Of a stretch of 64,000 nucleotides of DNA, positions 1 through 32,823 are shown piece by piece. The translations under genes and the position numbers were made by a program. Source of the DNA: Haloferax mucosum ATCC BAA-1512 (lineage in GTDB: Archaea; Halobacteriota; Halobacteria; Halobacteriales; Haloferacaceae); NCBI RefSeq assembly GCF_000337815.1, contig NZ_AOLN01000010.1:124001-188000 (forward strand), read 5' to 3'. The number at the start of each line of letters is the position of its first letter. Position 1 is the stretch's first letter. The notes under the pieces were generated by a model. That model had not been told where the DNA came from. It saw nothing but the letters and a program-made list of their open reading frames with translations, and made no database searches.

Positions 1-727
1 CACGCAACTGACCGAACTCCGGAACCAACACGGCGGCGAGGTTATCGTCTCGTTCGGCGGTCTCAACGGCACGTATCTCGCCGAGTCGCTGTCGAGCGCC
101 AGCGAGTTGAAAGACGCCTACGCGACGGTCGTCGATACCTACGACCTGACGTTCATCGACTTCGACGAGGAGTCGCGCATCAGCCGCGACGAGGAGTCGA
201 TTCAGCGACGGAACGAGGCGCTCGTCATGTTGCAAGAAGAGTACCCAGACCTGCGCGTCTCGTACACGCTCCCGGTGATGCCGTCCGGACTCCCGAGCCA
301 CGGCTCCAACGACGTGCTGTTCGTGCTCGAAGACGCCGTGTCCAAGGGCGTCGAACTGGAGGCGGTCAACCTCATGGCCATGGATTACGGCGCGGACATC
401 GCGCCGAACGCCGAAAACGCCATCAGCGCGGCAGAGAACGTCCACGCACAACTCGGCGACCTCTATCCCGACAAGTCGGCCGCCGAGCGCTGGGGTATGC
501 TCGGACTCACGCCGATGATCGGTGTCAACGACATCGGCGGGACGTTCTACCAAGAAGATGCACAACAGGTGCTCGACTTCGCACAGAACAACGGCCTTCC
601 GTGGCTCTCGTTTTGGGAACTCGTCCGCGACAACGGCGAGGGCGACAAACTCTACGAGAGCACTCTCATCGAACAGGAACCGTTCGAGTTCTCGTCCCTC
701 CTCAATCCGTTTACGACCCAACAATGA
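1..727 (+). CDS. GH18 chitinase, C-terminal part (5' end outside window)
   Basis: The frame is open from base 2, so the start lies upstream of the window; a TTG at 107 is only an internal codon. The visible part is the second half of a glycoside hydrolase family 18 TIM barrel, which hydrolyses beta-1,4 bonds of chitin. The GH18 signature DxDxE is present as DFDEE (bases about 158-172), so the catalytic glutamate is kept. The rest aligns well with the next gene, including the ERWGMLGLTPMIGVND-type strand. Its stop overlaps the next start (ATGA at 724-727), so the two chitinases are co-transcribed. Signal peptide and binding modules cannot be judged because they would lie upstream. Confidence 0.9.
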   Translation, partial: TQLTELRNQHGGEVIVSFGGLNGTYLAESLSSASELKDAYATVVDTYDLTFIDFDEESRISRDEESIQRRNEALVMLQEEYPDLRVSYTLPVMPSGLPSHGSNDVLFVLEDAVSKGVELEAVNLMAMDYGADIAPNAENAISAAENVHAQLGDLYPDKSAAERWGMLGLTPMIGVNDIGGTFYQEDAQQVLDFAQNNGLPWLSFWELVRDNGEGDKLYESTLIEQEPFEFSSLLNPFTTQQ

Positions 728-2148
728 CACAACATCGTCGAACGTATCTTCGGAACGTATCGGCACTCGTCACGTCAGTCGCTGGCGTGAGCGCAGTATC
801 GACCGCGGCGGCCGCACCGCCGGCGTGGGACGAATCGACCCTGTATCAGGAAGGTGACCGCGTCACCTACGACGGGTACATCTGGGAGGCCGACCTCTCC
901 TCGCGGAACGCCCAGCCGTCCGACGGTTCGGCGTACTGGACTAAAATCGGTCCCGTCGATGGCGGCGGTGGCGGTGACGGAGACCTGACGGCGGCGTTTA
1001 CCGTCAGCGACGCGACCGTCACGCCGGGAACGTCAGTCTCGTTCGACGCGAGCGACTCCACCGGTTCGATAGCGAGCTACAACTGGTCGTTCAGTGACGG
1101 CGGAAGCGCGACCGGGAAAACCATCTCCCACGCGTTCGACTCGACCGGCTCGTACGCGGTCAAACTCACCGTCACGGGGGCAGACGGTGCGACCAACACG
1201 ACAGAACAGACCGTCACGGTCGAATCAGCCGATGGCGGCGGTGGCGGGACGCCGACAGACGGCCTGCCGTCGAGCGTCTTCGCGCCCTACGACCACGTTT
1301 CCACGAACTCGGGGACGGAACCGATAGACCACGCGTCGGAGGCGGGAACGAACTACTTCCACCTCGCGTTCGTACTCGCGGGTCCGAACGGAGAACCGGC
1401 GTGGGACGGCGACGCGAACCAACTCGTCGGCGAGTCGCCCGTCGGCGGCTACATCGACGACCTCCACGCGGCCGGCGGCGAGGTCATCATCGCCTTCGGC
1501 GGCGCGGCAGGTCCGTATCTCGCAGACGGCACCGACGACCCGGCGGTTCTCGCAGACCGCTTCGAGGCGGTCGTCGATGCGTACGGCGCGACGCACCTCG
1601 ACATCGACGAGGAGGCGTTCGCCATGGACACGGTCAAGCGCCGAAACGAGGCGCTTGCGACGCTCCAAGAGCGCCGCCCCGAGGTCAGCATCTCCTTTAC
1701 GCTTCCCACGTCAACGAAGGGACTGACCGCACAGGGCAAAGACGTGCTCCAAGACGCCATCGACAAGGGAGTCACCATCGATACGGTGAACATCATGACG
1801 ATGAACTACGGGTGGGTCGAACCGACCGGAGACATCGTGACCCAGTCGGCGAGCAACCTCCACGACGACCTCGGGAGCCTCTTCCCCAACAAGTCGGCCA
1901 CAGAGCGCTGGAGCATGGTCGGTATCACGCCGATGATCGGTGTGAATAACGTCGGCGGGAAGTTCACGCAGTCGGACGCCAAACAGGTGGTCGCGTTCGC
2001 ACAGGACAACGACATCGGTCTGCTTTCGTTCTGGTCTATCGACCGAGACAACGGCACCGGGTCCGGTGAGGTCTCACCCATCAAAAGCGGTATCGACCAA
2101 ACGCCGTACGAGTTCTCGTCCATCTTCGCTCCGTTCACGAGCGAGTAA
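724..2148 (+). CDS. Secreted GH18 chitinase with CBM5/12 and PKD domains
   Basis: This 474-residue protein starts at ATG 724, overlapping the previous stop. A longer in-frame reading from 601 would run through the upstream gene and was rejected. Order of parts: a Tat signal (RRTYLR near the N-terminus, alanine-rich cleavage region near residue 29), a small carbohydrate-binding module of the CBM5/12 type (about 31-75, with Trp/Tyr-rich spacing), a Gly-rich linker, a PKD domain (about 84-165), a second Gly-rich linker, and a GH18 barrel (about 175-474). The catalytic DxDxE is DIDEE at 293-297, with E297 as the acid/base. It should act outside the cell on chitin, releasing oligomers for the ABC importer encoded downstream. 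Family assignment is firm; endo- or exo-action cannot be told. Confidence 0.93.
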   Translation: MTQHRRTYLRNVSALVTSVAGVSAVSTAAAAPPAWDESTLYQEGDRVTYDGYIWEADLSSRNAQPSDGSAYWTKIGPVDGGGGGDGDLTAAFTVSDATVTPGTSVSFDASDSTGSIASYNWSFSDGGSATGKTISHAFDSTGSYAVKLTVTGADGATNTTEQTVTVESADGGGGGTPTDGLPSSVFAPYDHVSTNSGTEPIDHASEAGTNYFHLAFVLAGPNGEPAWDGDANQLVGESPVGGYIDDLHAAGGEVIIAFGGAAGPYLADGTDDPAVLADRFEAVVDAYGATHLDIDEEAFAMDTVKRRNEALATLQERRPEVSISFTLPTSTKGLTAQGKDVLQDAIDKGVTIDTVNIMTMNYGWVEPTGDIVTQSASNLHDDLGSLFPNKSATERWSMVGITPMIGVNNVGGKFTQSDAKQVVAFAQDNDIGLLSFWSIDRDNGTGSGEVSPIKSGIDQTPYEFSSIFAPFTSE

Positions 2149-2503: not shown

Positions 2504-3574
2504 ATGCGCGCGATAGCCGTCCACCGCGGCGAAGAGTCACCGCGAGTTATCGACGTGCCGACGCCCGAGCCACAAGACGGCGACGTTCTCATCAAGACGC
2601 TCAGAGTCGGCGTCGACGGGACCGACCACGAGGTCATCAAGGGAACCCACGGCGGCTTCCCGCCGGGCGACGGCTATCAGATTCTCGGGCACGAAGCCAT
2701 CGGCGTCGTCGTTGACCCGACCACGACGGGATTCGACGAGGGTGACCTCGTCATCCCGACGGTCCGACGACCGCCCGGCGAGACGAACGAATACTTCGAA
2801 CGCGGCGAGCCGGATATGGCACCCGCCGGGAAGTATCTCGAACGCGGTATCGTGGACGCTCACGGCTACATGTCCGAGTACTTCACGAGTCCGGCAGAGT
2901 TCCTCGTCAAGCTTCCGTCGTCGCTTGCGTCCAACGGGTTCCTCGTCGAGCCAATGAGCAACGCAGAGAAAGCCATCGAGCACGCGTTCGCAACCCGGTC
3001 GGCGTTCACGTGGGAGCCGGAATCGGCGCTCGTGCTCGGAAACGGCCCGCTCGGACTGTTGACGCTAGCGCGTCTCGCTGACGATGTGGACGAACTCTAC
3101 TGCCTCGGGCGTCGTGACCGGCCGGACCCGAGTATCGACATCATCGAGAAACTCGGTGCGACCTACGTCGATTCGCGCGAGACGCCGGTCCCCGAGATTC
3201 CGGACGAGTACGGCCACGTCGATATCGCCGTCGAGGCGACCGGCTACGCGAAACACGCGTTCGAAGTCGTCGATGCGCTCGCGCCGAACGGAGTGGGCGC
3301 GCTTCTCGGCGTTCCCGCCGACTGGTCGTTCGACGTCGAAGGCGGGAGACTCCACCGCGAGATGGTACTCCAGAACAAGGCCCTCGTCGGGAGCGTCAAC
3401 TCCCACATTCCGCACTTCGAGATGGCTATCGACACGGTGTCGTCGCTTCCGGACTGGTTCATCGAGGACATCGTTACCGAAGTCGTTCCCGCAGAAGACC
3501 CAGCGGCCGCGTTCGAGCGAAACAAAGAACAGATCAAGACGGCCGTCGAGTTCGCGCCGCCGGCAGAGCGGTAA
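2504..3574 (+). CDS. Glucose 1-dehydrogenase-like zinc medium-chain dehydrogenase
   Basis: A 356-residue protein of the haloarchaeal glucose dehydrogenase family (MDR superfamily), which oxidises aldoses at C1 with NAD(P)+. The zinc ligands known for the Haloferax enzyme are present in sequence: D38, H63, E64 and a glutamate at 149 in the EP motif. The Rossmann motif GNGPLG follows, and GRRDRPDP after the second strand fits an NADP-preferring site. Its place beside chitinases, a deacetylase and a PLP lyase suggests that the substrate here may be glucosamine (product glucosaminate) rather than glucose; that is inference. The next gene is convergent, 18 bases away. Confidence 0.88.
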   Translation: MRAIAVHRGEESPRVIDVPTPEPQDGDVLIKTLRVGVDGTDHEVIKGTHGGFPPGDGYQILGHEAIGVVVDPTTTGFDEGDLVIPTVRRPPGETNEYFERGEPDMAPAGKYLERGIVDAHGYMSEYFTSPAEFLVKLPSSLASNGFLVEPMSNAEKAIEHAFATRSAFTWEPESALVLGNGPLGLLTLARLADDVDELYCLGRRDRPDPSIDIIEKLGATYVDSRETPVPEIPDEYGHVDIAVEATGYAKHAFEVVDALAPNGVGALLGVPADWSFDVEGGRLHREMVLQNKALVGSVNSHIPHFEMAIDTVSSLPDWFIEDIVTEVVPAEDPAAAFERNKEQIKTAVEFAPPAER

Positions 3575-3592: not shown

Positions 3593-4336
3593 TCAGAGTA
3601 GCTCCTTGGTCCGTCGGACGGTGCCGAGGACCATCCCGGGGATGTTTTCTTCGAGTCGTTTGCTACTGAGTCGGTCAGCACGTCCGACGACGTACACGGC
3701 GGCAATCTCGTCTTCGTATTCGAAAGCGATCGCGACGCCGTTCTGCTCAGGGTGTTGTTCGCCTCGCTCGATGGCGATACCGCGCTCGCGGATGTTCGCC
3801 AACTCGTCTGCGAGCAAGTCGGATTCGGTAATCGTATTGTCCGTGCGCGCGGGAAGCCCGGCGACGTCGATGATGTCGCTGACGCGGTCGTCCGAGAGAT
3901 GTGCGAGGATGGCCTTTCCCGGTGCGGTGCGGTGGAGATAGTGGTCGATTTCGATCGTCTCCGAGCGGTCGCTGGTCGATTGGTAGAGGTTGACGCCGTA
4001 CGACCCCTGTTTGACGAAGAGTCCGGCCGTCTCGTTCGTCGTCTGTGCGAGTTGGTCGATGAGTTCGTTAGAGGCGCGGTAGAGCGGTGAACGACCGCGA
4101 ATTCGAGTTCCCAACAAGACGAACCGATACGACAGCGAGTACTCCACGCCGGTTTTTCTGACGTACCCGAGTTCACGCAACGTTGCGAGGTGCTTGTAGG
4201 TCGTACTCCGGGTGTACCCGAGTTTCTCGGCGAGGTCCGAGACGCGGACCGGTCCGTCGCAGTCCGCCATCTCCTCGACGAGGGCGAACGTCTTTTTCGG
4301 CGCGGAGAGCGTCGGCATCCGAGTCCGGTCTGTCAT
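3593..4336 (-). CDS. IclR-family transcriptional regulator
   Basis: A 247-residue protein with the IclR layout: an N-terminal winged helix-turn-helix (about residues 10-70, with a SDLAEKLGYTRSTTYKHL-type recognition region) and a C-terminal IclR effector-binding domain. Family members bind small sugar acids or aromatic acids and usually control adjacent catabolic operons. It lies just downstream of and in the same direction as the DgoD-like gene (47-base gap), so the two are probably co-transcribed. A palindrome of the TGGA-N5-TCCA type sits upstream of the DgoD-like gene and the divergent ABC importer, a natural target. The ligand is unknown. Confidence 0.9.
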   Translation of the reverse strand: MTDRTRMPTLSAPKKTFALVEEMADCDGPVRVSDLAEKLGYTRSTTYKHLATLRELGYVRKTGVEYSLSYRFVLLGTRIRGRSPLYRASNELIDQLAQTTNETAGLFVKQGSYGVNLYQSTSDRSETIEIDHYLHRTAPGKAILAHLSDDRVSDIIDVAGLPARTDNTITESDLLADELANIRERGIAIERGEQHPEQNGVAIAFEYEDEIAAVYVVGRADRLSSKRLEENIPGMVLGTVRRTKELL

Positions 4337-4383: not shown

Positions 4384-5535
4384 CTACCAGTCAGTGATGC
4401 TTCCGTCTTCGTTTCGCCACGTCGGATTGTGCCACTCGACGTGTGCTTCGGAACGCGCTTCGACGGTTTCCTCGTCGATGGTGATGCCGAGTCCCGGGTC
4501 GTCGAGCGTGTCGAGGTATCCATCGTTGAAACTGAAGACTTCGGCGTCCGCGAGGTAGTCGTACGCGGGCCCGAGGTCGGGTGAGTGGATGTCGAATCCG
4601 TGGTCCTGCACGACGAGGTTCGGGATGTGCGTATCGACCTGCAAGGAGGCCGCGAGCGCAATCGGGCCGAGCGGGCAGTTCGGTGCGACGCCGACGTCGT
4701 ACGCCTCGGCCATCGTTGCGAGTTTGACCATCTCCGAGATACCGCCGGCGTGGGAGACGACGGGTTGAATCAGGTCGATAGCGCCGCCGCCGAAGAGCTG
4801 TTTGAAATCCCAGCGCGAGTAGAGTCGCTCGCCCGCCGCAATCGGGATTTGGGTCTGGTTTGCGATTGCCGGGAGGTGTTCGACGTTCTCCGGGAGAACT
4901 GGCTCCTCGGCGAACATGAGGTTGAGGTCTGAAAGGCGGTTCGTGAGCGTCTTCGCCATCGACTTCGAGACGCGACCGCGGAAATCGACGCCGATATCGA
5001 CCGCGTTATCCACCGCCTCGCGGACTTTTCGAATCCGCTCGACGACTCGCTCTATCGAGGCGGCCGTCTCGATGTGTCGCGTCTGGTTCGTCGCGTCCAT
5101 CTTCAACGCGGTGTACCCCGTATCGACGAGACGGTGTGCCTCCTCGATAACGTCGGTGGGGCGGTCCCCCCCGACCCACTGATACACCCTGATTTTGTCC
5201 CGGCTCTTGCCACCGAGGAGTTCGTAGACGGGTGCGTCGTAGTGCTTGCCTTTGATGTCCCATAGCGCCTGGTTGATACCCGCGATTGCGCTCATGAGAA
5301 TCGGTCCGCCGCGGTAGAAGCCGCTTCGATACAACGCCTGCCAGTGGTCTTCGATGCGAAGCGGGTCCTTCCCGACGAGATAGCCGTCGAGCATCTCCGA
5401 GACGGCCGTCTTTACCGTTTTCGCGCGGCCTTCGACGATTGGTTCGCCCCAGCCGACGAGTCCGTCGTCAGTCTCTATCTTGAGGAATAACCAGCGCGGA
5501 GGGAGTTCGTAGAGGTCGTACCCGGTGATTTTCAT
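4384..5535 (-). CDS. DgoD-like enolase-superfamily protein with altered catalytic residues
   Basis: A 383-residue protein that aligns end to end with bacterial D-galactonate dehydratase (mandelate-racemase branch of the enolase superfamily): LPPRW at the N-terminus, GFYRGGPILMSAIAG loop, and the barrel. The three metal ligands are kept (D184, E210, E236). The positions equivalent to the acid/base residues of E. coli DgoD are all changed: H185 to R186, D258 to V259, H285 to N286 and E310 to D311 (E. coli residues from memory). It may be a sugar-acid dehydratase of different chemistry or specificity (gluconate, glucosaminate) rather than a true galactonate dehydratase. It is divergent from the sugar ABC importer and followed by the IclR gene. 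Confidence 0.85.
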   Translation of the reverse strand: MKITGYDLYELPPRWLFLKIETDDGLVGWGEPIVEGRAKTVKTAVSEMLDGYLVGKDPLRIEDHWQALYRSGFYRGGPILMSAIAGINQALWDIKGKHYDAPVYELLGGKSRDKIRVYQWVGGDRPTDVIEEAHRLVDTGYTALKMDATNQTRHIETAASIERVVERIRKVREAVDNAVDIGVDFRGRVSKSMAKTLTNRLSDLNLMFAEEPVLPENVEHLPAIANQTQIPIAAGERLYSRWDFKQLFGGGAIDLIQPVVSHAGGISEMVKLATMAEAYDVGVAPNCPLGPIALAASLQVDTHIPNLVVQDHGFDIHSPDLGPAYDYLADAEVFSFNDGYLDTLDDPGLGITIDEETVEARSEAHVEWHNPTWRNEDGSITDW

Positions 5536-5685: not shown

Positions 5686-7002
5686 ATGGAAGACACTAGT
5701 AAGCGTAGTGTATCCCGGAGGCAACTCCTCGCAGGTGCCGGTGCGGCGACGGCAACTGGGTTAGCGGGTTGTCTCGGGCAGTTTAGCAGTACGACCAACC
5801 AAACGGAACAGGACATCACGCTCCAAGCCCGTCACTTCGCAACAAACGGCGTCGAGAAGTTCTACGAGAAACACGCCGCGAAGTTCGAAGAAGAGACGGG
5901 TATCGCCGTCGAAATCGATACGATGGGCTGGGGCAACGCAAAGCAAAAGCAACTCAACAGCATCACCAGCCGAGACGGTCCCGACGTCGAGGAAATTGCA
6001 TCGACGTGGATGCCTCAGCAGATTCAATCGGACGCGTGGATGGACCTCGACGAACTCGGTATCAGCCTCGACGGCGTCTACGACCAACCGACGAACGTCG
6101 CAAAACACGACGGAATCACCGCTGGATTCCCGTGGTTCTGGGGTCCGCGTGGGCACCTCGTCCACCAAGGCATGCTCGACGAAGCGGGAATCGAAGAGCA
6201 ACCAACGTCGTGGGACGACCTCATCGAACACAGCAAACAGTTCAAAGAGACGTTCCCCGAGAAGCATCTGTTCGGCCTGCCGGGTGCGAACAACTACGCC
6301 GTCACCCAGTATTACGCCATGTTCCTGTGGCAGTCCGGCGGAAAGCTTCTCTCTGACGATGAATCTGAAGCGACGTTTAACACCGAAAACGCCGTCGAGG
6401 CGCTCAACTTCTACAAGGACCTGGCGACGAAACACGAAGTTGCGCCGAAGGCGTCCGCCGAGTGGGACGGTCCCGCCCGCGACAGCGCCTTCATCAACAA
6501 GCGCATCGCTGGGACGTGGAGTTCGCTCAACACGGTCGATAAAGTCGTCTCCGAGGGCGACGCGACGCGCGACTCGATGGCGGTGTACAAGCCACCGGCG
6601 GGTCCGAACGGCCAGTCTGCGACGTTCTACGGCGTCAACCTCGTTGGCATCCACCCGTGGACGGACTACCCCGACGCGGCGGCCAAGTGGCTCAAGTACC
6701 TGATGAGGCCAGCGGTCAACGCCGACATCGCCTCGATGACCGGCTTCCTGCCGACCATCAAAAGCGGCTTCGACCAAGAACAGTTCTCCGGCCCGCTGTA
6801 CCAAACGTTCGCCGACAACGTTCTGCCGGGCGCAAAGACGTTCCCGCAGATTGTCGGCTGGGGTGAAGTCGAAGGGACGCTCAAAAACGCCGTCACGGAC
6901 GTTCTCACGAAGGGCGTCAGCGGCGACTGGAGCGAAGGCGACACGAAAGCCGCCCTCGACAAAGCGGTCAAGCAGGCGAACAACGTCCTCAGCGAGAACT
7001 GA
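5686..7002 (+). CDS. ABC transporter sugar-binding lipoprotein (family 1)
   Basis: A 438-residue extracellular solute-binding protein. The N-terminus has a Tat motif (SRRQLL) and a lipobox ending in LAGC, so it is a Tat-exported lipoprotein anchored outside the membrane. The remainder is a family 1 sugar-binding fold (residues about 45-438), with the TSWDDL and GRxGHLVHQ-type strands of MalE-like proteins. It begins an importer with the permeases at 7123 and 8102. The ATPase is probably the gene at 13516, as none lies adjacent. In this chitin locus the likely cargo is N-acetylglucosamine oligomers or another chitin breakdown sugar; this is inferred from context only. Confidence 0.9.
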   Translation: MEDTSKRSVSRRQLLAGAGAATATGLAGCLGQFSSTTNQTEQDITLQARHFATNGVEKFYEKHAAKFEEETGIAVEIDTMGWGNAKQKQLNSITSRDGPDVEEIASTWMPQQIQSDAWMDLDELGISLDGVYDQPTNVAKHDGITAGFPWFWGPRGHLVHQGMLDEAGIEEQPTSWDDLIEHSKQFKETFPEKHLFGLPGANNYAVTQYYAMFLWQSGGKLLSDDESEATFNTENAVEALNFYKDLATKHEVAPKASAEWDGPARDSAFINKRIAGTWSSLNTVDKVVSEGDATRDSMAVYKPPAGPNGQSATFYGVNLVGIHPWTDYPDAAAKWLKYLMRPAVNADIASMTGFLPTIKSGFDQEQFSGPLYQTFADNVLPGAKTFPQIVGWGEVEGTLKNAVTDVLTKGVSGDWSEGDTKAALDKAVKQANNVLSEN

Positions 7003-7122: not shown

Positions 7123-8100
7123 ATGTTAGAACGTGCCAAAAGCGGTATCACGAGAGCCGTCCCGAACTGGGTACAAGTTCGGCTACCCAGAACCAGCGAC
7201 GACACATTATTCGCATACAAACTCCTCCTCCCGGCGTTTTTGATGATGGGACTCATCCACTTTCTGCCCATCATATGGGGCTTCTACATCAGCTTCGTCG
7301 AACTCGACGCGGCCTACGTGTCGAACTGGTGGAACGCACCGATAGTCGGGTTGGAGAACTACGCGAAGATATTCAATCCGAACAGCATCGTCGGCGCTGA
7401 GTTCTGGACGTCGCTCCGACAGACGCTCATCTTCACCGTCGCGTCGGTCGTGGGGATTTACACGCTCGGGTTGGCGACGGCGCTCCTCTTGAACAGAGAC
7501 TTCAGGGGGAAACTCGCCGCTCGAACGCTCGTGTTGGTTCCGTGGATTGCGCCCGCGGTCGTGACCGTCCTGACGTGGCAGATGATGTTCCGCACCGACA
7601 CGGGGATGATCAATCACATCCTCCGGTCGGTCGGACTCATCGACGGGTCGTTCTTCTGGCTCATCGGTCCGCGGTCGATATTCGCAATCACCGCCGTCTG
7701 GACGTGGCAGAACTTCCCGTGGGCGGCGATTATGCTCTACGCGGGCTTGCAGTCGATTCCGGAACACCTCTACGAGGCCGCCGAAACCGACGGCGCGGGT
7801 CGGTGGGGGAAGTTCCGGTACATCACGATGCCCCAATTGAAACCCGTCTCAGTCGTCATCGTTCTCCTGATGGTCGTCTGGACGCTCATCAACTTCACCG
7901 TCCCGTACGTGTTACTCGGTGCGAGTCCGAGTGACTCCGGGAAGGTTCTCATGTTGTTCATCTATAACTACGCGTTCTCCAACTGGTCGTTCGGTCTCGG
8001 CGCGGCGATGAGTACCATCCTGTTCATCGTGGCGATGATACTCGCGTACATCTACTACAAGCGCGTTATCGGCGGCGAGTTCGAAGGAGGTGCCATCTGA
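7123..8100 (+). CDS. ABC sugar transporter permease, MalF type
   Basis: A 325-residue membrane protein with about six transmembrane segments, the first near residues 35-60. It has the cytoplasmic EAA loop typical of binding-protein-dependent permeases (EAAETDGAGRWGKFRYITMP at about 226-245), which docks on the ATPase. It pairs with the permease at 8102, whose start lies one base after this stop. Together they form the channel of the importer that starts at 5686. Confidence 0.92.
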   Translation: MLERAKSGITRAVPNWVQVRLPRTSDDTLFAYKLLLPAFLMMGLIHFLPIIWGFYISFVELDAAYVSNWWNAPIVGLENYAKIFNPNSIVGAEFWTSLRQTLIFTVASVVGIYTLGLATALLLNRDFRGKLAARTLVLVPWIAPAVVTVLTWQMMFRTDTGMINHILRSVGLIDGSFFWLIGPRSIFAITAVWTWQNFPWAAIMLYAGLQSIPEHLYEAAETDGAGRWGKFRYITMPQLKPVSVVIVLLMVVWTLINFTVPYVLLGASPSDSGKVLMLFIYNYAFSNWSFGLGAAMSTILFIVAMILAYIYYKRVIGGEFEGGAI

Positions 8101-8101
8101 G

Positions 8102-9013
8102 ATGTGGGGCGCGCTCCGAACCGAAGACGAAGGCGGCCAGATTCCCGACTCGTTCCGACTGACGACCGACGGCCGCGAACTCATCGTCGATACGTTCTCG
8201 CGGTTCGCGCTCGGGTTGATACTGCTTTTCGCGCTGTTTCCCATCTGGATGATGGTGATGAACAGTTTCAAATCCAGAAGTCAGGTGATGGCCGAGAACC
8301 CGACGCTCATCCCGACCGAGTTCCATATCTCGAACTACTTCGAGATGTGGCAACGTTTCCCGCTGTTCGATTACTTCCTGAACAGCCTCATCATTGCCAG
8401 CGTGACGACCGTCGTCACCATCCTCGTCGCCAGCCTCGCCGCGTACGCGTTCTCGCGGTACGACTTCCCGGGGAAGACGAAGTTCGAACTGTCGATTCTC
8501 GGGACGCAGATGATTCCCGGCGTACTCATCCTCCTGCCGATGTACCTGCTTTTCATCAACATTCAGATGCGGGTCGGCCTACCGATGAAAGATACGTACC
8601 ACGGACTCATCTTCCTGTACTCGACGTTCACCATCCCGTTCGCAATCTGGATGCTCCGCGGATACTTCGATACGATTCCGAACGCGCTCGGCGAAGCCGC
8701 ACGAATCGACGGTTGTACACGACTCGGCGCGCTGTTCCGAGTCGTGATGCCGCTGGCCGCGCCGGGCATCGCCGCAACGTCGATGTTCGTGTTCCTCCTC
8801 GCGTTCAACGAGGTCCTTTTCGCGTCGGTGCTCGGCTCCGACAGCGTCACGCCGTTCGCAATCGGTATTCAGGAGTTCCAGACGCAGACCCAGACCTACT
8901 GGGGACAGATGATGGCGGCATCGACGGTTGCGACGATTCCGCTGTTGTTCCTGTTCGTCCTCTTCCAAAAGCCGATTGTCTCGGGACTTACCTCGGGAAG
9001 CGTCAAGCACTAA
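8102..9013 (+). CDS. ABC sugar transporter permease, MalG type
   Basis: A 303-residue permease with six predicted transmembrane segments and the EAA loop (EAARIDGCTRLGALFRVVMP, near residue 200). ATG 8102 is chosen because GGAGG at 8086-8090 stands 11 bases before it. A GTG at 8090 inside that motif would add four residues. It forms the heterodimeric channel with the preceding permease. A hairpin with a T run overlaps its end. Confidence 0.92.
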   Translation: MWGALRTEDEGGQIPDSFRLTTDGRELIVDTFSRFALGLILLFALFPIWMMVMNSFKSRSQVMAENPTLIPTEFHISNYFEMWQRFPLFDYFLNSLIIASVTTVVTILVASLAAYAFSRYDFPGKTKFELSILGTQMIPGVLILLPMYLLFINIQMRVGLPMKDTYHGLIFLYSTFTIPFAIWMLRGYFDTIPNALGEAARIDGCTRLGALFRVVMPLAAPGIAATSMFVFLLAFNEVLFASVLGSDSVTPFAIGIQEFQTQTQTYWGQMMAASTVATIPLLFLFVLFQKPIVSGLTSGSVKH

Positions 9014-9174: not shown

Positions 9175-10764
9175 ATGACAGACAACGTGTTGACAGCGGA
9201 GCGCCCAGTCCATGCGGTGCCGCTCGAAGAGAAAGTCGGGCAGTTGTTCGTCGCCGGGTTCGACGGGAGCGAACCGACCGACGACATCGCGGAGTTAGTT
9301 TCGTCGCACCACCTCGGTGGCATCATCTATTTCAGCCGAAACATCGACTCGCCGTCGCAAGTGGCGTCGCTTTCGGAACGTCTCCAAACCATCGCGCGCG
9401 AGGCGGGCGAACCGCCGCTCCTCATTGCGACCGACCAAGAAGGGGGCGTCGTCTCTCGGTTCGACTGGGGCGCACAACTCCCCAGTCAGATGGCGCTTGG
9501 GGCGACGCGCGACCCGTCGAAACTCAGGTGGGCGGGCGAGACCGTCGGTGAAGAACTCGCGTCACTCGGTATCTCGATGAACTTCGCACCGGTGTTGGAC
9601 GTGAACAACAACCCCGAGAATCCCGTTATCGGTGTTCGGTCGTTCGGCGACGACCCGGAACGCGTCGGCGAGTTGGGGTCGGCGCTCGCGTCGGGGTTGC
9701 AGTCAGCGGGCGTCGTCGCCTGCGGGAAACACTTCCCCGGGCACGGCGACACCGAGACCGACTCCCACCGGTCGCTTCCAGTTATTCCGCACGACAGAGA
9801 CCGACTGGAGACCGTCGAGTTCGTCCCGTTCCGCCGCGCCATCGACGACGGTATCGACGCGCTCATGACGACGCACATCGCCTTCCCGGCGATTACGGGC
9901 GACGAGACGCTCCCGGCGACGCTCTCGAAGGAGGTTCTGACGGGTATCCTCCGGGAAGAGTTTGGATTCGACGGCCTGCTCGTCTCCGACTGTTTGGAGA
10001 TGAACGCCATCGCCGACACCGTCGGCACGGCCGACGGCGCAGTACAATCGATTGCGGCGGGATGCGACGTGGTGCTCGTGTCTCACTCGCCCGAGCGCCA
10101 GCGCGAGGCCATCGAACGCGTCATCCACGCCGTCGAGTCCGGTGAACTCTCCGAATCGCGCATCGACAGCGCGTTCGAGCGAGTGCGAGAGTACAAACGC
10201 AAGCGAGTCGCCAGCGGAGGCGACCCATCGGCTGACTGGCGCGAGGCGGTCGAGCACTCGCGGACAGTCGCACGCGAACTCGCTAGCGCGGGTGTGACCG
10301 TCGTCCGCGACCGTGACGGCGTGCTCCCGTTCGACCCGTCGGCACCGATTCACCTCGTCGGCTTCGCGGGGACCGCCCAGTCAGACGCAGAAGACGACCG
10401 GTACGACTCGAGCGATTTCTTGGCGGCGTTCGGCGAAGACCGCGAGGTGCATTTCCACGACGTCGTGGACGCCGAAGAGTACGACCACCCGTTCGACGGG
10501 GGCGAACAGGTCGTCGTCGCAACGTACCACGCGCGGTCGAATATCGGACAGGCGCGCGTCGTCCGCGAGATTGCCGACGCTTCGACCGAGTTGGCCGTAG
10601 TCTCGGTGCGCGACCCCTACGACCTCAACGCATTTCCCGAGATTTCGACGTACGTCACGGGATACGGCTACTCGCCGGCGATGCTGGAAGCGCTCGCAGA
10701 CGTGCTCTGCGGCGGCGAAGGTGGAACCGGGACGTTGCCAGTGACGATTCCCGGCGTCGAATAG
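9175..10764 (+). CDS. GH3 beta-N-acetylglucosaminidase, NagZ-like
   Basis: A 529-residue glycoside hydrolase family 3 enzyme. The N-terminal barrel (about 18-340) has the NagZ-type loop K185-H-FPGHGDT-x-x-DSH198, with the His/Asp dyad acting as the general acid, and the nucleophile D272 in the VSDCLEM motif. A C-terminal alpha/beta domain follows (about 355-529). No signal peptide is seen, so it is cytoplasmic and would cleave imported chitin oligomers or chitobiose to N-acetylglucosamine. It stands alone on the plus strand, between the permease operon and the convergent RidA gene. Confidence 0.92.
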   Translation: MTDNVLTAERPVHAVPLEEKVGQLFVAGFDGSEPTDDIAELVSSHHLGGIIYFSRNIDSPSQVASLSERLQTIAREAGEPPLLIATDQEGGVVSRFDWGAQLPSQMALGATRDPSKLRWAGETVGEELASLGISMNFAPVLDVNNNPENPVIGVRSFGDDPERVGELGSALASGLQSAGVVACGKHFPGHGDTETDSHRSLPVIPHDRDRLETVEFVPFRRAIDDGIDALMTTHIAFPAITGDETLPATLSKEVLTGILREEFGFDGLLVSDCLEMNAIADTVGTADGAVQSIAAGCDVVLVSHSPERQREAIERVIHAVESGELSESRIDSAFERVREYKRKRVASGGDPSADWREAVEHSRTVARELASAGVTVVRDRDGVLPFDPSAPIHLVGFAGTAQSDAEDDRYDSSDFLAAFGEDREVHFHDVVDAEEYDHPFDGGEQVVVATYHARSNIGQARVVREIADASTELAVVSVRDPYDLNAFPEISTYVTGYGYSPAMLEALADVLCGGEGGTGTLPVTIPGVE

Positions 10765-10913: not shown

Positions 10914-11288
10914 TTACGCCTCGGCGACCACTTCGATTTCGACTTTGATGTCAACGGGGAGTTTCACGACTTCGACCGCGCTTCGAGCGGGGTACGGAGA
11001 CGACAGCAGTTCACCGTACACCTCGTTGACGCGGTCGTAATAGCGCATGTCGTTGACGAAGACCGTCGCTTTCACGACGTCGTCGAGAGACGCGTCGCCG
11101 GCGCGGAGGACCGCCTCGACGTTTTCGAGTGTTTGTCGCGTCTGTTCGCGGACGTCTTGGCTGACTACGTCGCCGGTTTCGGGGTCGATAGGACCCTGCC
11201 CGGAGACGTAGATGGTGCCGTCGGATTCGATACCTTGGGAGAAGGGGCCGATACTTGCGGGTGCGTCGTCGGTGGAGAGTTCGCGCAT
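10914..11288 (-). CDS. ridA: RidA-family enamine/imine deaminase
   Basis: A 124-residue protein of the Rid (YjgF/YER057c/UK114) family. The key arginine is in PARSAVEV and the glutamate in the C-terminal VEIEV. Rid proteins hydrolyse reactive 2-aminoacrylate or related imines made by PLP-dependent lyases and dehydratases, yielding ketoacids and ammonia. It is the last gene of the minus-strand set PLP lyase, deacetylase, RidA, which suggests it clears the enamine or imine made by the PLP enzyme at 12118. The 5' neighbour is 72 bases away. Confidence 0.9.
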   Translation of the reverse strand: MRELSTDDAPASIGPFSQGIESDGTIYVSGQGPIDPETGDVVSQDVREQTRQTLENVEAVLRAGDASLDDVVKATVFVNDMRYYDRVNEVYGELLSSPYPARSAVEVVKLPVDIKVEIEVVAEA

Positions 11289-11360: not shown

Positions 11361-12068
11361 TTAGCTCGACAGGTAATCCCGAGCCTGTTCGTGAAGCGGT
11401 GCGAAGCCCTCAGCGGCCGTACAGCCGACGCGCTTTCCGAGCGTCATCCCCTCGGCGCGAAGGCTCTCGACGAGGTTGTCGAACTCGGCGTCGATACCGC
11501 CGTGGTCAACGAGGAACTCGATCTGCGAGACGTGCTGTTCGAGCGCCTCGATTTTCGTATCGAGGTGGCCGGAGATATCCACGAACGTCTCGGGGTCGAA
11601 CGACGACGTGGGCTTCCCGAAGAAGTAGATGTTGTCGGGGTCGCAGGGTTCGAAATCGGTCTCGACGAGCGGGAGCGACGCCATGTAGTACGCGTCGGTC
11701 ACGAGTCGGGCGGTCGCTTGGTGGTCCGGGTGCATGTCGTCTTTGAAGTGCGTGAGGACTACGTCGGGGTCGTACTTTCGAAGCGTGTCCACGATTTGGA
11801 GTCGGTTTTCGAGCGAGTACTGGACGCGACCGTCTTTGAAGCCGAGGAACTCGACCTCGTCAACGTCGAGAATGTCGCCCGCGGCGCGGGATTCCTCGCT
11901 TCTGACCGTCGCAACCTCTGTTTCCGTGTCGCTTTCGAGACCGCCGTACTCGCCGCGAGTCATGTGCGCGACCGTCACGTGGTCGCCGCGTGCGGCGTGC
12001 TTTGCGAGCGTGCCACCACAGAAGATTGCGGCGTCGTCTGGATGTGCGACTATTGCTAACAAGTCCAT
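11361..12068 (-). CDS. PIG-L/LmbE-family N-acetylglucosaminyl deacetylase
   Basis: A 235-residue zinc deacetylase of the PIG-L/LmbE family. The zinc-binding AHPDD is at residues 8-12 and the second motif HPDH is near residue 110. This is the same family as the diacetylchitobiose deacetylases of chitin-using archaea. No signal peptide is visible, so it works inside the cell, removing acetyl groups from GlcNAc or chitobiose. It is co-directional with the PLP enzyme (49-base gap) and RidA, implying one aminosugar operon. The residue after AHPDD is Ala rather than the usual Glu, a mild divergence. Confidence 0.88.
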   Translation of the reverse strand: MDLLAIVAHPDDAAIFCGGTLAKHAARGDHVTVAHMTRGEYGGLESDTETEVATVRSEESRAAGDILDVDEVEFLGFKDGRVQYSLENRLQIVDTLRKYDPDVVLTHFKDDMHPDHQATARLVTDAYYMASLPLVETDFEPCDPDNIYFFGKPTSSFDPETFVDISGHLDTKIEALEQHVSQIEFLVDHGGIDAEFDNLVESLRAEGMTLGKRVGCTAAEGFAPLHEQARDYLSS

Positions 12069-12117: not shown

Positions 12118-13344
12118 TTAGTTCTCGACGTTGGCGACGATTCGGCCGGCGACGTACTCGGCCTCCTCGTCGGTGAGACACATCGGGTTCGCAACGACTT
12201 CTCCCTCGTCGATTTTGTCGCCGCCGAGGTAGACACGCGGATTTTCGGCACGAAGTCGGCGAACTAGTTCGATAGCGGTGGTATCGGACGAGCCGTCGAT
12301 GTCGATGACGACTTCGGGGGCGACGCTGACGTCGCTCCCGCCGGTGACGTGGGTCGCCAAGCCGGCGTCCTCGATGGCCCGCGCGATGTTGTCGGCGCGG
12401 CTCTGCCACTCGCGTTGGGTCTCAGCCGGGTCTTCCTCCAAGAACGCATCGAGCGCGTAGATGAGACCGACCAGTTCCTCTTTTCCGACCTTCATCGGGC
12501 GGCCGATTCCCTGTCGGGGGACGCCCGCGAAATTGTCGAGGTCGATGAGTCGCTTCGGCGGCGACCACGCGGCCTCGGCGACGTGCATGTCGAGGTGTTG
12601 GAGAGCAATCGACTCGATGTACTCCTGTTTGCCAGCGACGATACCGGTCGTCTGCGGACCGCGAATGCCCTTCCCACCGCTGAACACGACGAGGTCGGCA
12701 CCCTGTTCGACGAACCGCGAGAAGTTCGAACGGGGCGGGAGTTCGGCGGCCGCATCGACGATGACGGGGATGTCGTGGTCGTGTGCGATGTCGGCGACAA
12801 CGTCCAGCGGCGGACTGGTGTAGGACTTTTCCATGTACGCGATAGCCGCCGTCTCGTCGGTGATGTTCGACTCGATTTCCCACGGCTCGACGTTGGTCGA
12901 GCCGGTTCCGAGGTGGAGGTCGTTCGTCCCGATATCGACGATAGTCGCGCCCGCGGTTCGAAGAGCGTGGTCGTAGCCGGTCCGGTGGGTTCGAGGCATC
13001 AGTATCTCGCTCGGGATGCCCTTGGTGTCGGGAAGGCTATCCATCGCCGCAACGTCGTGACCGGCGATGGCCGCCGCCGCAGAAAGACACAGACCAGCGG
13101 CCGCCCCGCTCGTCACGTAACCGGCTTCCGCGCCGGTGACTTCGGCGATGCGGTCCGAAGCGGCCGCCTGGAGGTCGCCGAGTTCGACGAAGTCCGAAGC
13201 GGCACGGTTCATCGCTTCGAGTGCTTCGTCTCTGATGAGACTCCCGCCGATTCGTGTCTTCGTCCCGGCGGCGTTGACCACTGGCGGGACGTCCAACTCT
13301 TCGTATATGGAGTCTGTATGACTCCGGTAACGTTGCTCTGTCAT
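12118..13344 (-). CDS. SelA/DgaE-like PLP-dependent lyase, candidate glucosaminate ammonia-lyase
   Basis: A 408-residue fold-type I PLP enzyme. The Schiff-base lysine is K225 in SGGKGIRGPQ and the PLP-pyridine aspartate is D197 in VDAAAELPP. The N-terminal NAAGTKTRIGGS motif is typical of the SelA/DgaE group, which includes D-glucosaminate-6-phosphate ammonia-lyase and 2-amino-sugar-acid dehydratases. Next to a deacetylase, RidA and a sugar dehydrogenase, the likely reaction is elimination of ammonia from glucosaminate to 2-keto-3-deoxygluconate. This specific role is inference. A minus-strand TATA-like ATATAAA lies at about 13411-13417, 65 bases upstream of the start. Confidence 0.82.
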   Translation of the reverse strand: MTEQRYRSHTDSIYEELDVPPVVNAAGTKTRIGGSLIRDEALEAMNRAASDFVELGDLQAAASDRIAEVTGAEAGYVTSGAAAGLCLSAAAAIAGHDVAAMDSLPDTKGIPSEILMPRTHRTGYDHALRTAGATIVDIGTNDLHLGTGSTNVEPWEIESNITDETAAIAYMEKSYTSPPLDVVADIAHDHDIPVIVDAAAELPPRSNFSRFVEQGADLVVFSGGKGIRGPQTTGIVAGKQEYIESIALQHLDMHVAEAAWSPPKRLIDLDNFAGVPRQGIGRPMKVGKEELVGLIYALDAFLEEDPAETQREWQSRADNIARAIEDAGLATHVTGGSDVSVAPEVVIDIDGSSDTTAIELVRRLRAENPRVYLGGDKIDEGEVVANPMCLTDEEAEYVAGRIVANVEN

Positions 13345-13515: not shown

Positions 13516-14646
13516 ATGTCACAGTTAGAGCTTCGTAACCTCCGGAAGGAGTTCACCGGAGGGGGCGACAACATCGTTGCGGTTGACGATGTCGATTTGA
13601 CACTCCACGATGGTGAGTTTCTCGTCCTCGTCGGACCCTCGGGATGCGGCAAATCGACCACACTTCGGATGATTGCGGGATTGGAGACGGTGACCAACGG
13701 GGATGTCATCATCGGTGACGAGTCGGTAACTGACTTAGAGCCGCGAGAGCGCGACATCGCGATGGTGTTCCAGAATTACGCGTTGTATCCCCACATGACG
13801 ACCCGTGAGAACATCGGCTTCGGTCTGAAGATGACGACCGACCTCGACGCCGACGAACGGAACCAACGAGTCGAGGACGTCGCCACGTCGCTCGGTATCG
13901 AGGAACTCCTCGACGATTATCCGAAGGAATTGTCGGGCGGGCAACAACAGCGCGTCGCGCTCGGTCGTGCAATCATCCGTGACCCCGAAGTGTTCTTGAT
14001 GGACGAACCGCTTTCGAACCTCGACGCGAAGCTTCGGACACAGATGCGAACCGAACTCAAGGCGTTGCAGGACGACCTGAACGTCACCACCGTCTACGTC
14101 ACCCACGACCAGACCGAAGCGATGACGATGGGCGACCGCATCGCTATCCTCAACCACGGAGAACTACAGCAAGTCGGGACGCCGCTGGAGTGTTACCACC
14201 AGCCGGCCAACAAGTTCGTCGCCGGCTTCATCGGTGCGCCCTCGATGAACTTCATCAACGTCGAATCCGAAGGTGACCGACTCGTCCACAAGGAGTTCAC
14301 GTACGACGTCACCGGCGAGACCGCCGAAGCGATCGCCGACCACGGTCGGGTGTCGATGGGTATCCGACCGGAAGACATTCGAGTCGTCGATGAATCGGCC
14401 GTCGAAAATCCGATTACCGCCGACGTTCACCTCGTAGAACCGCTCGGAGACGTGTCGCACGTCACACTGAACGTCGGAGCCAAACGACTTACCGCGGCCG
14501 TTCCGGGTGGAAAGACGTTCGAGCGGGGTGAGGAAGTCACGCTACAGTTCCCCGAGGAGAATCTACACCTGTTCGACGCCGCGTCAGGTGAAACGCTGAA
14601 AAACAGTTCGCAGTCGGCCGACGAAGAACCAGTCATTCACGCCTGA
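13516..14646 (+). CDS. ABC transporter ATP-binding protein, MsmX/UgpC type
   Basis: A 376-residue ATPase of sugar importers. It has Walker A GPSGCGKST (about 41-49), signature LSGGQQQR, Walker B VFLMDEPLSNLD, the switch histidine in VTHDQTEA, and C-terminal TOBE-like regulatory domains with the FIGAPSMNFI boundary. No permease is adjacent, so it probably energises the importer at 5686-9013. ATPases of this group can serve several importers. It has its own promoter. Confidence 0.92.
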   Translation: MSQLELRNLRKEFTGGGDNIVAVDDVDLTLHDGEFLVLVGPSGCGKSTTLRMIAGLETVTNGDVIIGDESVTDLEPRERDIAMVFQNYALYPHMTTRENIGFGLKMTTDLDADERNQRVEDVATSLGIEELLDDYPKELSGGQQQRVALGRAIIRDPEVFLMDEPLSNLDAKLRTQMRTELKALQDDLNVTTVYVTHDQTEAMTMGDRIAILNHGELQQVGTPLECYHQPANKFVAGFIGAPSMNFINVESEGDRLVHKEFTYDVTGETAEAIADHGRVSMGIRPEDIRVVDESAVENPITADVHLVEPLGDVSHVTLNVGAKRLTAAVPGGKTFERGEEVTLQFPEENLHLFDAASGETLKNSSQSADEEPVIHA

Positions 14647-24071: not shown

Positions 24072-26408
24072 TTAGTTTCCACCGAGCACCCGCTTGAACA
24101 GCGTGAACGTGAGCAGGGTGAAAAACAGCCCGTTCAACATCCCTTGACTCGCCGCCAGCACACGAGCGGCTGGACCAATCGGGTTGATATCGCCGTAGCC
24201 GACCGTACTGAAGCTAATATAGCTGTAGTAGACGTTGTCGAAGAGGACTTCGAGTGCCGTCTTGTTGACCGCACCCGCCTCGAAAACACTCCCCGCTTGT
24301 GTCGCAAATGGTCCGCCGACGGCGTACAATAGCCCGAACACCGCCGGAAGCAAGAACGTGAAGATGGCGATTCGCGGAAGCCGGTTTCCGTAGCCACACG
24401 TCACCTGCATCAGGAGGTTGAGACCCGCGCTTGCGACCTTCTTACCGCGAGCCCACACGTTCAGCGAGTACTCGTTGATGATGATGTCGAAGTTCTTCTT
24501 GCGGTTGTAGTAGTAGCGCTTGAATTCGAACTCCCGGCTGGCGGGTGTGTCGCCGACCGCATCCGCGCTATCCTGTGCTTTTCGGTACGTCTCCTCGATG
24601 ATTTCGTGGTCCATCTCGACGGCGAACTGGCCGGTCGCGGTGTTGCCGACGAAGTCGTGAATCGTCCAGTCGTTTCGTTCGAGATAGCCGTGGTGGTCGC
24701 TGAAGTCGAAGCAGTCGAACTCGGTGAGACAGAATCTGAAGTGGTCGAGTAGTTCGTGGTCGTTGCCGTCGCCTTCGAGTTGGAGGTCGCCGATGGTCGC
24801 ACGGGTGAGGTCGTACGGGGTCGCCTCGCCGGAGACCTGCGAAATCGTCCCACCGCAGATGGTCGCGTCGGTGAAATCGAGGTACGTGTCACGCTCGCCG
24901 TTGCGGACGCGGAAGCGGGCGGTTTCGTGAAACACCGCACGGCGGAAGTCCGACTGCTCGTGGAACGTCGTCTCCCAGAACGAGGCGGTCGTGAAGTTCG
25001 CCGCTTCGAACTCGGCGGCGTCCTCGAAGACGGCTTCGTTGAACGACGCGTTCGCTTCGAGATGTTGCATCTCGCCTTCGAACAGCGCACCACGGAACTC
25101 GGCGGGGCCGTGAAACGTCGCGTTTCGGAAGCGTGCGTCCTCTTCGAATCTGACCTCGGTGAACCGCGCTCGTGCTTCGAAGGCGACATCCTCGAACGAA
25201 GCGTCGCCGCCGAACGTCGTCTCCTCGGCGACGACGTCGTCTTGGAGCGTGCTGTCGTCGAAATTGACGCCGCCGTTGAACGTTGCGAGCGAGAGGTTGA
25301 GTTCGCCGGCGATTCGGAGGCGGTGGCAATCCGCTCTCGCCGTGAACGTCGCGCGGTCGAAGTTGACCGCACCTTTGAACACCGCATCTTTGAAGTCCGA
25401 AAACCGGAAGCGAGCGAGTTTGTAGTCAGCCTCGCTTTCGAACGTCGCGCCCTCGAACGTCACGTCGTCGTGTGTCGTCCGACTACCGCCGTTGAACTCG
25501 ACGCCGCGGAACTCGGCCAACGCCATGAATCGACCGTCGGTGAAGCTGACGTCGTCGTCGAAGCGTGCCTCGTCGAAGTCGGCCATCTCCTGAAACGTCA
25601 CGTCGTCGAATCGGGCGTCGCCGTCGAACCTGACGTGTTCGAAGTCGGAACCAGCAGTGAACTGCGCGCGTTCGAACGTGACGTAATCGAACGTCGCCTG
25701 CCGGAAACTCGCGTCGCCGCGAAAGGTCGTATCGGCGAACGAGATGTGGTCGTTCAACACGTGGCTACTCCCGCTCGTCTCGATGTTTCGGAAGTTCGCC
25801 GCGCCGTGGAACGTCGTGTCCGCGAAGCTCGTGTCGGCCAAGAACGTCGTCTCGTCGCAGTGAACGTCCCCGTGAAAGACCGCGTCGTCGAACCAGACTT
25901 CCTGTTCGAACGTCGCCTCGTTCGTCGTCATCTCGTCTCGGACGGTCAGGTGCTGTGCATCGACGGTTCCCGTGAGAACCGCCTCCTTGAGCTTGAGCCG
26001 GCCGATGGTCGCCTCTCGGAGAATCAATCCCTGTTCGAGTTTGCCGTGCGTGAGGTCCAACCCTTCGATAGTCGCGTGCTGGAAGTTCAGCACGTGGTTG
26101 GTCTCACCGTTGACATCCTGATACGTGAGCGAGAGGTGCGGGAGGTCCGCGCCGACGTACTCGTTGACGCGGGTGTCCGACGACTGGAGATTCGCCCGGA
26201 GTTCTTCGACAATATCGTCACCCGAGACGTCGAGCGAGGTCCGCTCGTCCCGGCTCATGTGGAACACGCAGTGTTCGCTTTCGGGATGGGCCTCGTGGGG
26301 ACATTCCCACGTCGTTTGGAGGTGTGCGTCCGTCTGTATCGACGGGTCGAACGTGTACCGACACGTGGAGGAAGACATCAAAGCGGGTGTAGATTCATTT
26401 CTCGACAT
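24072..26408 (-). CDS. Pentapeptide-repeat protein fused to a two-helix ion channel
   Basis: A 778-residue protein. The N-terminus has a small Cys/His cluster (CPHEAHPESEHCVFH near 35-50). Residues about 100-600 are long runs of pentapeptide-like repeats (A-x-F-x-x with Phe at every fifth position), predicted to form a right-handed quadrilateral beta-helix. The C-terminal 150 or so residues contain two transmembrane helices around the potassium-channel filter TVGYGD (near 745). The large cytoplasmic beta-helix is likely a sensor or scaffold gating the pore. It is the last gene of a five-gene minus-strand cluster with a spermidine-synthase-like protein. An alternative start is Met 11. Confidence 0.85.
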   Translation of the reverse strand: MSRNESTPALMSSSTCRYTFDPSIQTDAHLQTTWECPHEAHPESEHCVFHMSRDERTSLDVSGDDIVEELRANLQSSDTRVNEYVGADLPHLSLTYQDVNGETNHVLNFQHATIEGLDLTHGKLEQGLILREATIGRLKLKEAVLTGTVDAQHLTVRDEMTTNEATFEQEVWFDDAVFHGDVHCDETTFLADTSFADTTFHGAANFRNIETSGSSHVLNDHISFADTTFRGDASFRQATFDYVTFERAQFTAGSDFEHVRFDGDARFDDVTFQEMADFDEARFDDDVSFTDGRFMALAEFRGVEFNGGSRTTHDDVTFEGATFESEADYKLARFRFSDFKDAVFKGAVNFDRATFTARADCHRLRIAGELNLSLATFNGGVNFDDSTLQDDVVAEETTFGGDASFEDVAFEARARFTEVRFEEDARFRNATFHGPAEFRGALFEGEMQHLEANASFNEAVFEDAAEFEAANFTTASFWETTFHEQSDFRRAVFHETARFRVRNGERDTYLDFTDATICGGTISQVSGEATPYDLTRATIGDLQLEGDGNDHELLDHFRFCLTEFDCFDFSDHHGYLERNDWTIHDFVGNTATGQFAVEMDHEIIEETYRKAQDSADAVGDTPASREFEFKRYYYNRKKNFDIIINEYSLNVWARGKKVASAGLNLLMQVTCGYGNRLPRIAIFTFLLPAVFGLLYAVGGPFATQAGSVFEAGAVNKTALEVLFDNVYYSYISFSTVGYGDINPIGPAARVLAASQGMLNGLFFTLLTFTLFKRVLGGN

Positions 26409-31048: not shown

Positions 31049-31199
31049 CAATCCAAATTCTTAGAATTATTTAAATTATTTGAATGGCTGAGGGGGGTGT
31101 TAGCGCGGACGAAAGCTGGACGGTGCCAGAAGAAAAGAGATACGAGGCAACAGTAAATTATTCAAATTATGTAGATTTCTTAGGCTATTTAAGACATCC
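31049..31199 (+). repeat. Two 9-bp-phased AT-rich arrays
   Basis: The first block is 31049-31084 (CAATCCAAA, TTCTTAGAA, TTATTTAAA, TTATTTGAA). The second is 31155-31199 (AAATTATTC, AAATTATGT, AGATTTCTT, AGGCTATTT, AAGACATCC). Both keep the 9-bp step and lie just before the parA start. Confidence 0.65.
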
Positions 31200-31269
31200 A
31201 AAGGGCCAGGATAACCATAATTATTTCAAGAACGCCGAATATCTGGATAGTACGGATACCCTGCCCATT

Positions 31270-32133
31270 ATGTCACGCGCAGTCAGTGTTTGTCTACTCA
31301 AAGGCGGTATCGGCAAATCGACGACCTCGATCAACCTCACCCGCGAACTCGCACACCGCGGAAGCAACGTCCTCCTCGTTGACCTCGACCCGAACGGCCA
31401 TACGACGACCGGCCTCGGGTTCGGCGAGGAATTTTACTCGGAGTCGCATCTCGGAGACGTGCTCTTGGACGACGCGGACACCGAACCCCGGGAACTCATC
31501 TTAGAGACCGACTTCGAAATCGACCTCCTGCCCTCGAACGACCGCATCGAGCAGGTCGAGTCAGACCTCGGCGGCGTGATGATGGGTTCTGCGCGTCTCA
31601 AACAGCGCGTCGTCAATCCGCTTCTCGGAGACGAATACGACTACGTTGTCGTGGACTGTCCCGCCGCACGCGGAAAACTCAACGACAACGCCCTGTATGC
31701 GACGCAAAATCTGGTGTTGCCGATGCGTCCCGAGTCCGGGGCGCTCTCCGGTCTCGAAAAGACAGTCAAGCGTCTGATTCAGCCCGCACGAGAGCACTTC
31801 GACCTCGATATTCTCGCGGTGGTACCGACCGACCTCCGGGACCGAATCGACCACGACCGACCGACGCGGCGGCTCATCGAAGCCCTCGTTTCGAAACCGA
31901 ATATCGCTTCGAAACTCCCGGAGTTCGCGTATACGGACCCGTCGTTCTTCGAAGCGATCGACAACGGCACGTGGGATGACGACCTGCCAAAGCCTGGAAT
32001 CCGTCATCGGTCGGCAATCGACGCATCGATTCGAGACCACATGCCGCTACGCGACTACGACAGCTCGTGCGACCAACTCGAATGCTACGACGAACTCGCT
32101 CAAATCGTCGAAAACGGAGCTGTCAGCCGATGA
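31270..32133 (+). CDS. parA: ParA/Soj-family partition ATPase
   Basis: A 287-residue ATPase of the ParA/MinD superfamily with the deviant Walker A KGGIGKSTT (about 11-19), LLVDLDPNGH (Walker A' region) and VVVDCPAA (Walker B). ATG 31270 (MSRAVSVCLLKGG) is chosen; the in-frame extension from 31084 consists of repeat DNA. It overlaps the next gene by ATGA. Together they form a plasmid-partition operon beside the replication origin, which moves replicon copies to daughter cells. Confidence 0.92.
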   Translation: MSRAVSVCLLKGGIGKSTTSINLTRELAHRGSNVLLVDLDPNGHTTTGLGFGEEFYSESHLGDVLLDDADTEPRELILETDFEIDLLPSNDRIEQVESDLGGVMMGSARLKQRVVNPLLGDEYDYVVVDCPAARGKLNDNALYATQNLVLPMRPESGALSGLEKTVKRLIQPAREHFDLDILAVVPTDLRDRIDHDRPTRRLIEALVSKPNIASKLPEFAYTDPSFFEAIDNGTWDDDLPKPGIRHRSAIDASIRDHMPLRDYDSSCDQLECYDELAQIVENGAVSR

Positions 32134-32516: not shown

Positions 32517-32520
32517 CGCA

Positions 32521-32764: not shown

Positions 32765-32823
32765 TCTGGTGGTAAGAAACTGTGTTCGGTCGATTACAAT
32801 GGCCAAGTGGATTCGGTGGAAAC

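Follow-up and report, generated by a model that had tools for sequence, protein, structure and literature searches.

A haloarchaeal branch of galactonate dehydratase-like proteins with a replaced acid/base set and a probable place in amino-sugar catabolism

In D-galactonate dehydratase (DgoD), H285, paired with D258, takes the C2 proton of galactonate, and H185 assists the departure of the 3-OH group. The D-mannonate dehydratases of the enolase superfamily carry their catalysts on the strand-2 side and have no His/Asp dyad. A passage of PMC11219438 cites Wieczorek 1999 for a new general acid of DgoD. Ordinary haloarchaeal DgoD sits with galactosidases and with KDG kinase and aldolase (PMC3102087). 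Passages of a 2025 paper on Natrarchaeobius (PMC12343721) describe chitinase clusters with chitinases, an ABC transporter, a CE14 deacetylase, GDH, DGA, an IclR and a RutC-type protein; they propose that GlcNAc is converted via GlcN and glucosaminate to KDPG, and list a 'GAD (galactonate dehydratase)' that has no assigned step there. The absence of functional residues is counted among the classes of misannotation that affect enzyme superfamilies (PMC2781113). Our literature search found no paper on enolase-superfamily enzymes acting on glucosaminate, and none discussing the clade described below.

A DgoD-like fold with a replaced acid/base set

The window analysed here is a stretch of 64,000 nucleotides from Haloferax mucosum ATCC BAA-1512. 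Its ORF at 4384..5535 (- strand) has an intact reading frame and encodes a 383-aa DgoD-like protein of the enolase superfamily, named DgoDx, in which both MR_MLE domains (PF02746, N; PF13378, C) were found with Pfam. A full-length alignment to DgoD, claimed in the first-pass annotation, was borne out: DgoDx scores 595 bits against a cut-off of 311 with the NCBIfam galactonate dehydratase model NF010624 (PRK14017), and it is aligned end to end both with this model and with the DgoD-like structure 3rr1. The AlphaFold2 model (pLDDT 91.4, pTM 0.92; input of 42 relatives) has the Ralstonia PRK14017 protein 3rr1/3rra as its closest solved structure, with a TM of 0.92 to 3rra. DgoDx is about 50% identical to E. 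coli DgoD and about 60% identical to ordinary haloarchaeal DgoD, which has the same fold. The ManD/RspA proteins (3ow1, 2qjn), also enolase-superfamily sugar-acid dehydratases, were among the next-best structural matches; they likewise lack the strand-6 Asp and are about 30% identical to DgoDx, whose score of 253.8 bits with the ManD family HMM lies below the cut-off of 550. A second, separate homologue (36% identity) encoded in the same genome is probably of the gluconate/xylonate dehydratase type.

The numbering of E. coli DgoD equals that of DgoDx minus 1 at the sites discussed (for example, H185 corresponds to DgoDx residue 186). The E. coli sequence used as the reference agrees with the 3rr1 sequence at the compared sites. 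The three metal ligands of DgoD, D183, E209 and E235, are retained as Asp184 (4984..4986), Glu210 (4906..4908) and Glu236 (4828..4830), as is Lys145 (5101..5103) on strand 2, which the alignment places in all DgoD-like proteins; these and the following codons lie on the - strand. The general acid H185 is replaced by Arg186 (CGC, 4978..4980), D258 by Val259 (GTC, 4759..4761), the C2 base H285 by Asn286 (AAC, 4678..4680) and E310 by Asp311 (GAC, 4603..4605), the last being a conservative change. These four replacements (H185R, D258V, H285N and E310D in E. coli numbering) had been read before, three of them at the codon level; all were confirmed here, now including the E310D codon, but a fifth had been missed. 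This change, N146D, brings Asp147 (GAC, 5095..5097) to the strand-2 position of mandelate racemase K166 and has the same diagnostic value as the others. The motif pairs of DgoD and DgoDx align without gaps (GLDFHGR/GVDFRGR, QPDLSHAGG/QPVVSHAGG, APHCPLGP/APNCPLGP and LQEQ/VQDH), which rules out misalignment or shifted catalytic residues. DgoDx thus has the domains, TIM barrel and three carboxylate metal ligands of the mandelate racemase subgroup, but in place of the subgroup's strand-7 His base and strand-6 Asp it has Asn286 and Val259.

A conserved clade under purifying selection

Relatives were collected by similarity search from genome contigs and 391 Halobacteria genomes, with an added search for a DNA pattern encoding Asn-Cys-Pro and then Gln-Asp-His-Gly at fixed spacing. 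The DgoDx type was found in 39 of the 391 genomes, in 13 genera, a count that may miss more divergent members failing both filters. Three members of one genus fell under the first similarity cut and were recovered through the DNA pattern and a neighbouring DgaE-like gene. Model NF010624 matched all 42 scanned members, DgoDx type and ordinary DgoD alike, and one clade member, on a Halosolutus plasmid, carries the label dgoD.

In an alignment of the 39 clade sequences with 47 ordinary DgoDs, D147, R186, N286 and D311 (DgoDx numbering) were present in 39/39 of the former and 0/47 of the latter. In only five columns, these four and F314, does the clade hold a single residue that is rare among ordinary DgoDs; four of the five are among nine active-site positions (hypergeometric, ~7e-7), so that the clustering of changes at the active site exceeds chance. 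The metal ligands, whose retention the first-pass annotation had noted, and Lys145 were found in all 39 members. The D258 column holds Asp in 34/39, Val in 4/39 and Ala in 1/39, and the Val-bearing members form a Haloferax and Haloarchaeobius sub-branch of the tree. The four changes reported at first had been treated as one set, to be sought in haloarchaeal homologues; three (R185, N285 and D310 in E. coli numbering) are indeed invariant and, with the N146 replacement, separate DgoDx from DgoD clade-wide, but D258V is a later, local change, and a family-wide rule of four replaced residues was rejected. On the simplest reading, loss of the His base came before the drift of its partner D258. H312, beside D311, was also considered as a general replacement base and rejected, this residue being Gln in 9/39 members.

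In a quick, midpoint-rooted tree computed without the signature columns, a branch with SH-aLRT 99 separates the clade from the other sequences; within the enolase superfamily, the clade and haloarchaeal DgoD are sister branches. Values of dN/dS were 0.05-0.14 (about 0.08) among clade members, compared with 0.09-0.11 in ordinary DgoDs, and both types are present in some genomes (G053, G038). A relaxed, decaying gene copy could explain why this one sequence has lost catalytic residues, but the same residues recur in 39 genomes and 13 genera, with dN/dS of ~0.08 and no stops or frameshifts. This purifying selection argues against decay and for a functional change under constraint; clade-wide residues, tree and dN/dS together rule out a decaying copy, a pseudogene or a sequencing error, and we give decay hardly any credence.

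Two further groups of DgoD-like proteins were observed. In a second DgoD-related clade (L017, L020, L021, L022, L029, L031), the match regions show Arg at H185 with H285 kept, N146 replaced by Ala, Ser or Val, and E310 by Ala or Ser; L022 has Gln at metal ligand E235, and two members lie near a PIG-L gene. From these residues, the group is likely another misannotated one. In Haloferax/Halorubrum DgoD-like proteins (L108, L109, L110, L024, L028), the strand-4 EE pair aligns as D-Q, so that metal ligand E209 is Asp, and the acid/base residues are all kept.

Chitin and amino-sugar genes around DgoDx

In the window, DgoDx is flanked by the gene of an IclR-family regulator (3593..4336, -; Pfam) on one side and a sugar ABC transporter on the other. 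The transporter consists of a binding protein (5686..7002, +; Pfam), permease A (7123..8100, +; Pfam), permease B (8090..9013, +; an ORF syntenic in other loci) and a UgpC/MalK-type ATPase (13516..14646, +; NCBIfam). Beyond the regulator lie a secreted chitinase-like protein with CBM5/12 and PKD domains (601..2148, +), which has a DIDEE motif, no Pfam GH18 match and a true start probably downstream of the listed GTG, and a glucose 1-dehydrogenase (2504..3574, +), close to the glucose dehydrogenase entries 2b5v/2vwg and a candidate oxidiser of glucosamine. Also encoded are a GH3 beta-N-acetylhexosaminidase (9175..10764, +; NF003740, 226.7 bits against a cut-off of 207), a RidA/Rid-family enamine/imine deaminase (10914..11288, -; Pfam, NCBIfam), a PIG-L/CE14 GlcNAc-type deacetylase (11361..12068, -) matching diacetylchitobiose deacetylase structures, and a DgaE-like PLP lyase of the glucosaminate-6-phosphate ammonia-lyase family (12118..13344, -; NCBIfam). 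The lyase is a PLP enzyme of unrelated fold and thus a pathway partner encoded nearby, not a member of the DgoDx family. Two chitinases of family GH18, each with the motif DGxDIDWE, are encoded just upstream of the window.

Elsewhere in the window, a second chitinase-like protein at 1-727 has no Pfam match whatever, nine pentapeptide-repeat stretches are fused to an ion-channel domain (24072-26408), and two TENA/THI-4 genes overlap in tandem (35656-37082). ParA-like genes, Cdc6/Orc genes and a TraG-type ATPase (31084-34233 and 53324-55705) suggest that the window belongs to a megaplasmid or an integrated element.

The DgoDx neighbourhood therefore contains chitin/GlcNAc genes and DgaE, in contrast to the galactose genes of DgoD (kinase, aldolase, galactosidases). 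Across genomes, a DgaE-like gene was present in 39/39 with DgoDx, compared with 88/391 in the background (hypergeometric, 2e-29, with kinship ignored). The same held within genera: in genus g1, DgaE occurred in 3/3 genomes with DgoDx and 0/12 without it. The two genes lie within 10 kb of each other in 37/39 genomes, and 610 kb apart in genome G291. The smallest common unit is IclR-DgoDx-DgaE (L148, L149, L151), with gaps of 66-82 bases between DgaE and DgoDx; in the genus of L148, DgoDx follows DgaE in the same orientation after 66 bases, and IclR comes next. Among 35 clade neighbourhoods, 34 contained DgaE, the exception being at a contig end; PIG-L deacetylase and glucose dehydrogenase were each found in 30, the binding protein in 28, RidA in 22 and true GH18 chitinases in 19, the GH18 counts resting on protein cluster c2 and not on the 601-2148-type protein. 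DgaE was absent from every ordinary DgoD locus among those listed. The 'GAD' clusters in the passages of PMC12343721 are, by gene content, of the same type as that of DgoDx; 'GAD' is named a galactonate dehydratase in those passages, which contain no discussion of active-site residues. These results support the earlier view that the name galactonate dehydratase is unlikely for DgoDx: the clade is monophyletic and under purifying selection, and it lies beside DgaE and chitin/GlcNAc genes rather than the galactosidases of DgoD. Clade, selection and gene context likewise make likely a new enolase-superfamily function, one of the two readings offered earlier.

DgaE occurs without DgoDx in 49 of the 88 DgaE-bearing genomes, including clusters with the same ABC transporter (L207) or with chitinase and deacetylase (L204). 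DgoDx is therefore accessory or replaceable: although tied to the pathway, it is not indispensable, as the pathway can operate in its absence or with a replacement. This, together with the loss of the DgoD acid/base residues, the free drift of D258 in part of the clade and the adjoining IclR gene, is what could be expected if DgoDx were a non-catalytic pseudoenzyme, acting as a sensor, scaffold or DgaE partner through binding of an amino-sugar acid or metal. Against it, four new polar active-site residues, including a newly introduced Asp, are strictly fixed, and all 39 members keep Lys145 and the three metal ligands; a pseudoenzyme would have no need to retain its metal site. We consider a pseudoenzyme unlikely, and the binding protein offered as an alternative in the first-pass annotation likewise appears less likely because of the kept Lys145 and metal ligands.

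No firm candidate for a replacement was found in the DgaE clusters lacking DgoDx. A family of ~340 aa with no Pfam match (c19) recurs beside DgaE (L204, L205, L206, L208, L211, L215, L217, L224) and is found alongside DgoDx as well (L215). Another enolase-superfamily protein, c26, lies near DgaE in L201, L206, L208, L211 and L156, of which 4/5 are in DgoDx-free genomes; it has KxK on strand 2, and its His/Asp dyad motifs are mostly visible.

Proposed function of DgoDx

We consider it fairly probable that DgoDx is not a galactonate dehydratase but a neofunctionalised, metal-dependent enolase-superfamily enzyme that takes part in the oxidative breakdown of GlcN(Ac), with a 2-amino- or 2-acetamido-sugar acid as its substrate. 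Its pathway and substrate class are probably those to which the chitin/GlcNAc and DgaE neighbourhood points. Along this route, chitin would be cut by GH18 enzymes, taken up by the ABC transporter, and processed by GH3, PIG-L deacetylase and glucose dehydrogenase to D-glucosaminate, which the DgaE-like PLP lyase, with RidA, would convert to KDG. As the metal site and Lys145 remain, carboxylate binding and enolate stabilisation are still possible in DgoDx, and a 2-amino- or 2-acetamido-2-deoxy-aldonate could be bound by means of Lys145 and the Mg site.

In this site the His base H285 has given way to Asn286 and the His acid H185 to Arg186, and the new ionisable residue, Asp147, occupies the position of mandelate racemase Lys166, which would put it across C2 from H285. 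Asp147, possibly with Asp311, may recognise the 2-amino group, or may serve as the single acid/base on the other C2 face, as in an epimerase; a proton-transfer role for Asp147 is tentative, and we know of no precedent for an Asp base at this strand-2 position. Alternatively, DgoDx could be a lyase whose substrate is the C2 epimer or the N-acetyl form. Its product may feed DgaE, or DgoDx may relieve DgaE. The exact reaction proposed is a guess, held with low confidence. Against this reading, the proposed pathway already reaches KDG with no enolase-superfamily step, 49 of the 88 DgaE-bearing genomes lack DgoDx, and the two genes lie far apart in G291.

DgoDx might instead still be a gluconate- or galactonate-type dehydratase with an unconventional acid/base set, acting on the deaminated sugars handled by these clusters. 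Its identity of ~60% and common fold with ordinary haloarchaeal DgoD, and the glucose dehydrogenase in 30/35 loci, are consistent with such an enzyme, as is the example of the D-mannonate dehydratases with strand-2-side catalysts and no His/Asp dyad. However, the catalytic base H285 and acid H185 of DgoD are both replaced, the linkage is to DgaE and amino-sugar genes and not to galactose genes, and the separate 36% homologue, probably a gluconate/xylonate dehydratase, is encoded in the same genome. We regard a sugar-acid dehydratase as improbable.

In the DgoDx clade, active-site changes that go together are cleanly confined to a single branch of a superfamily that has been studied in depth. 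It is also a case of over-annotation, as both kinds of protein pass one NCBIfam equivalog model. GlcNAc catabolism in chitin-eating haloarchaea has so far been a partial prediction, in which 'GAD' has no role in the relevant passages (PMC12343721). Since the gene neighbourhood points to a substrate class, the reaction of DgoDx is directly testable. It is possible, though doubtful, that DgoDx represents a new enolase-superfamily class, a 2-amino-/2-acetamido-2-deoxy-aldonate epimerase or lyase with a strand-2 Asp replacing the His/Asp dyad; if true, this would add an unrecognised step to haloarchaeal chitin catabolism.
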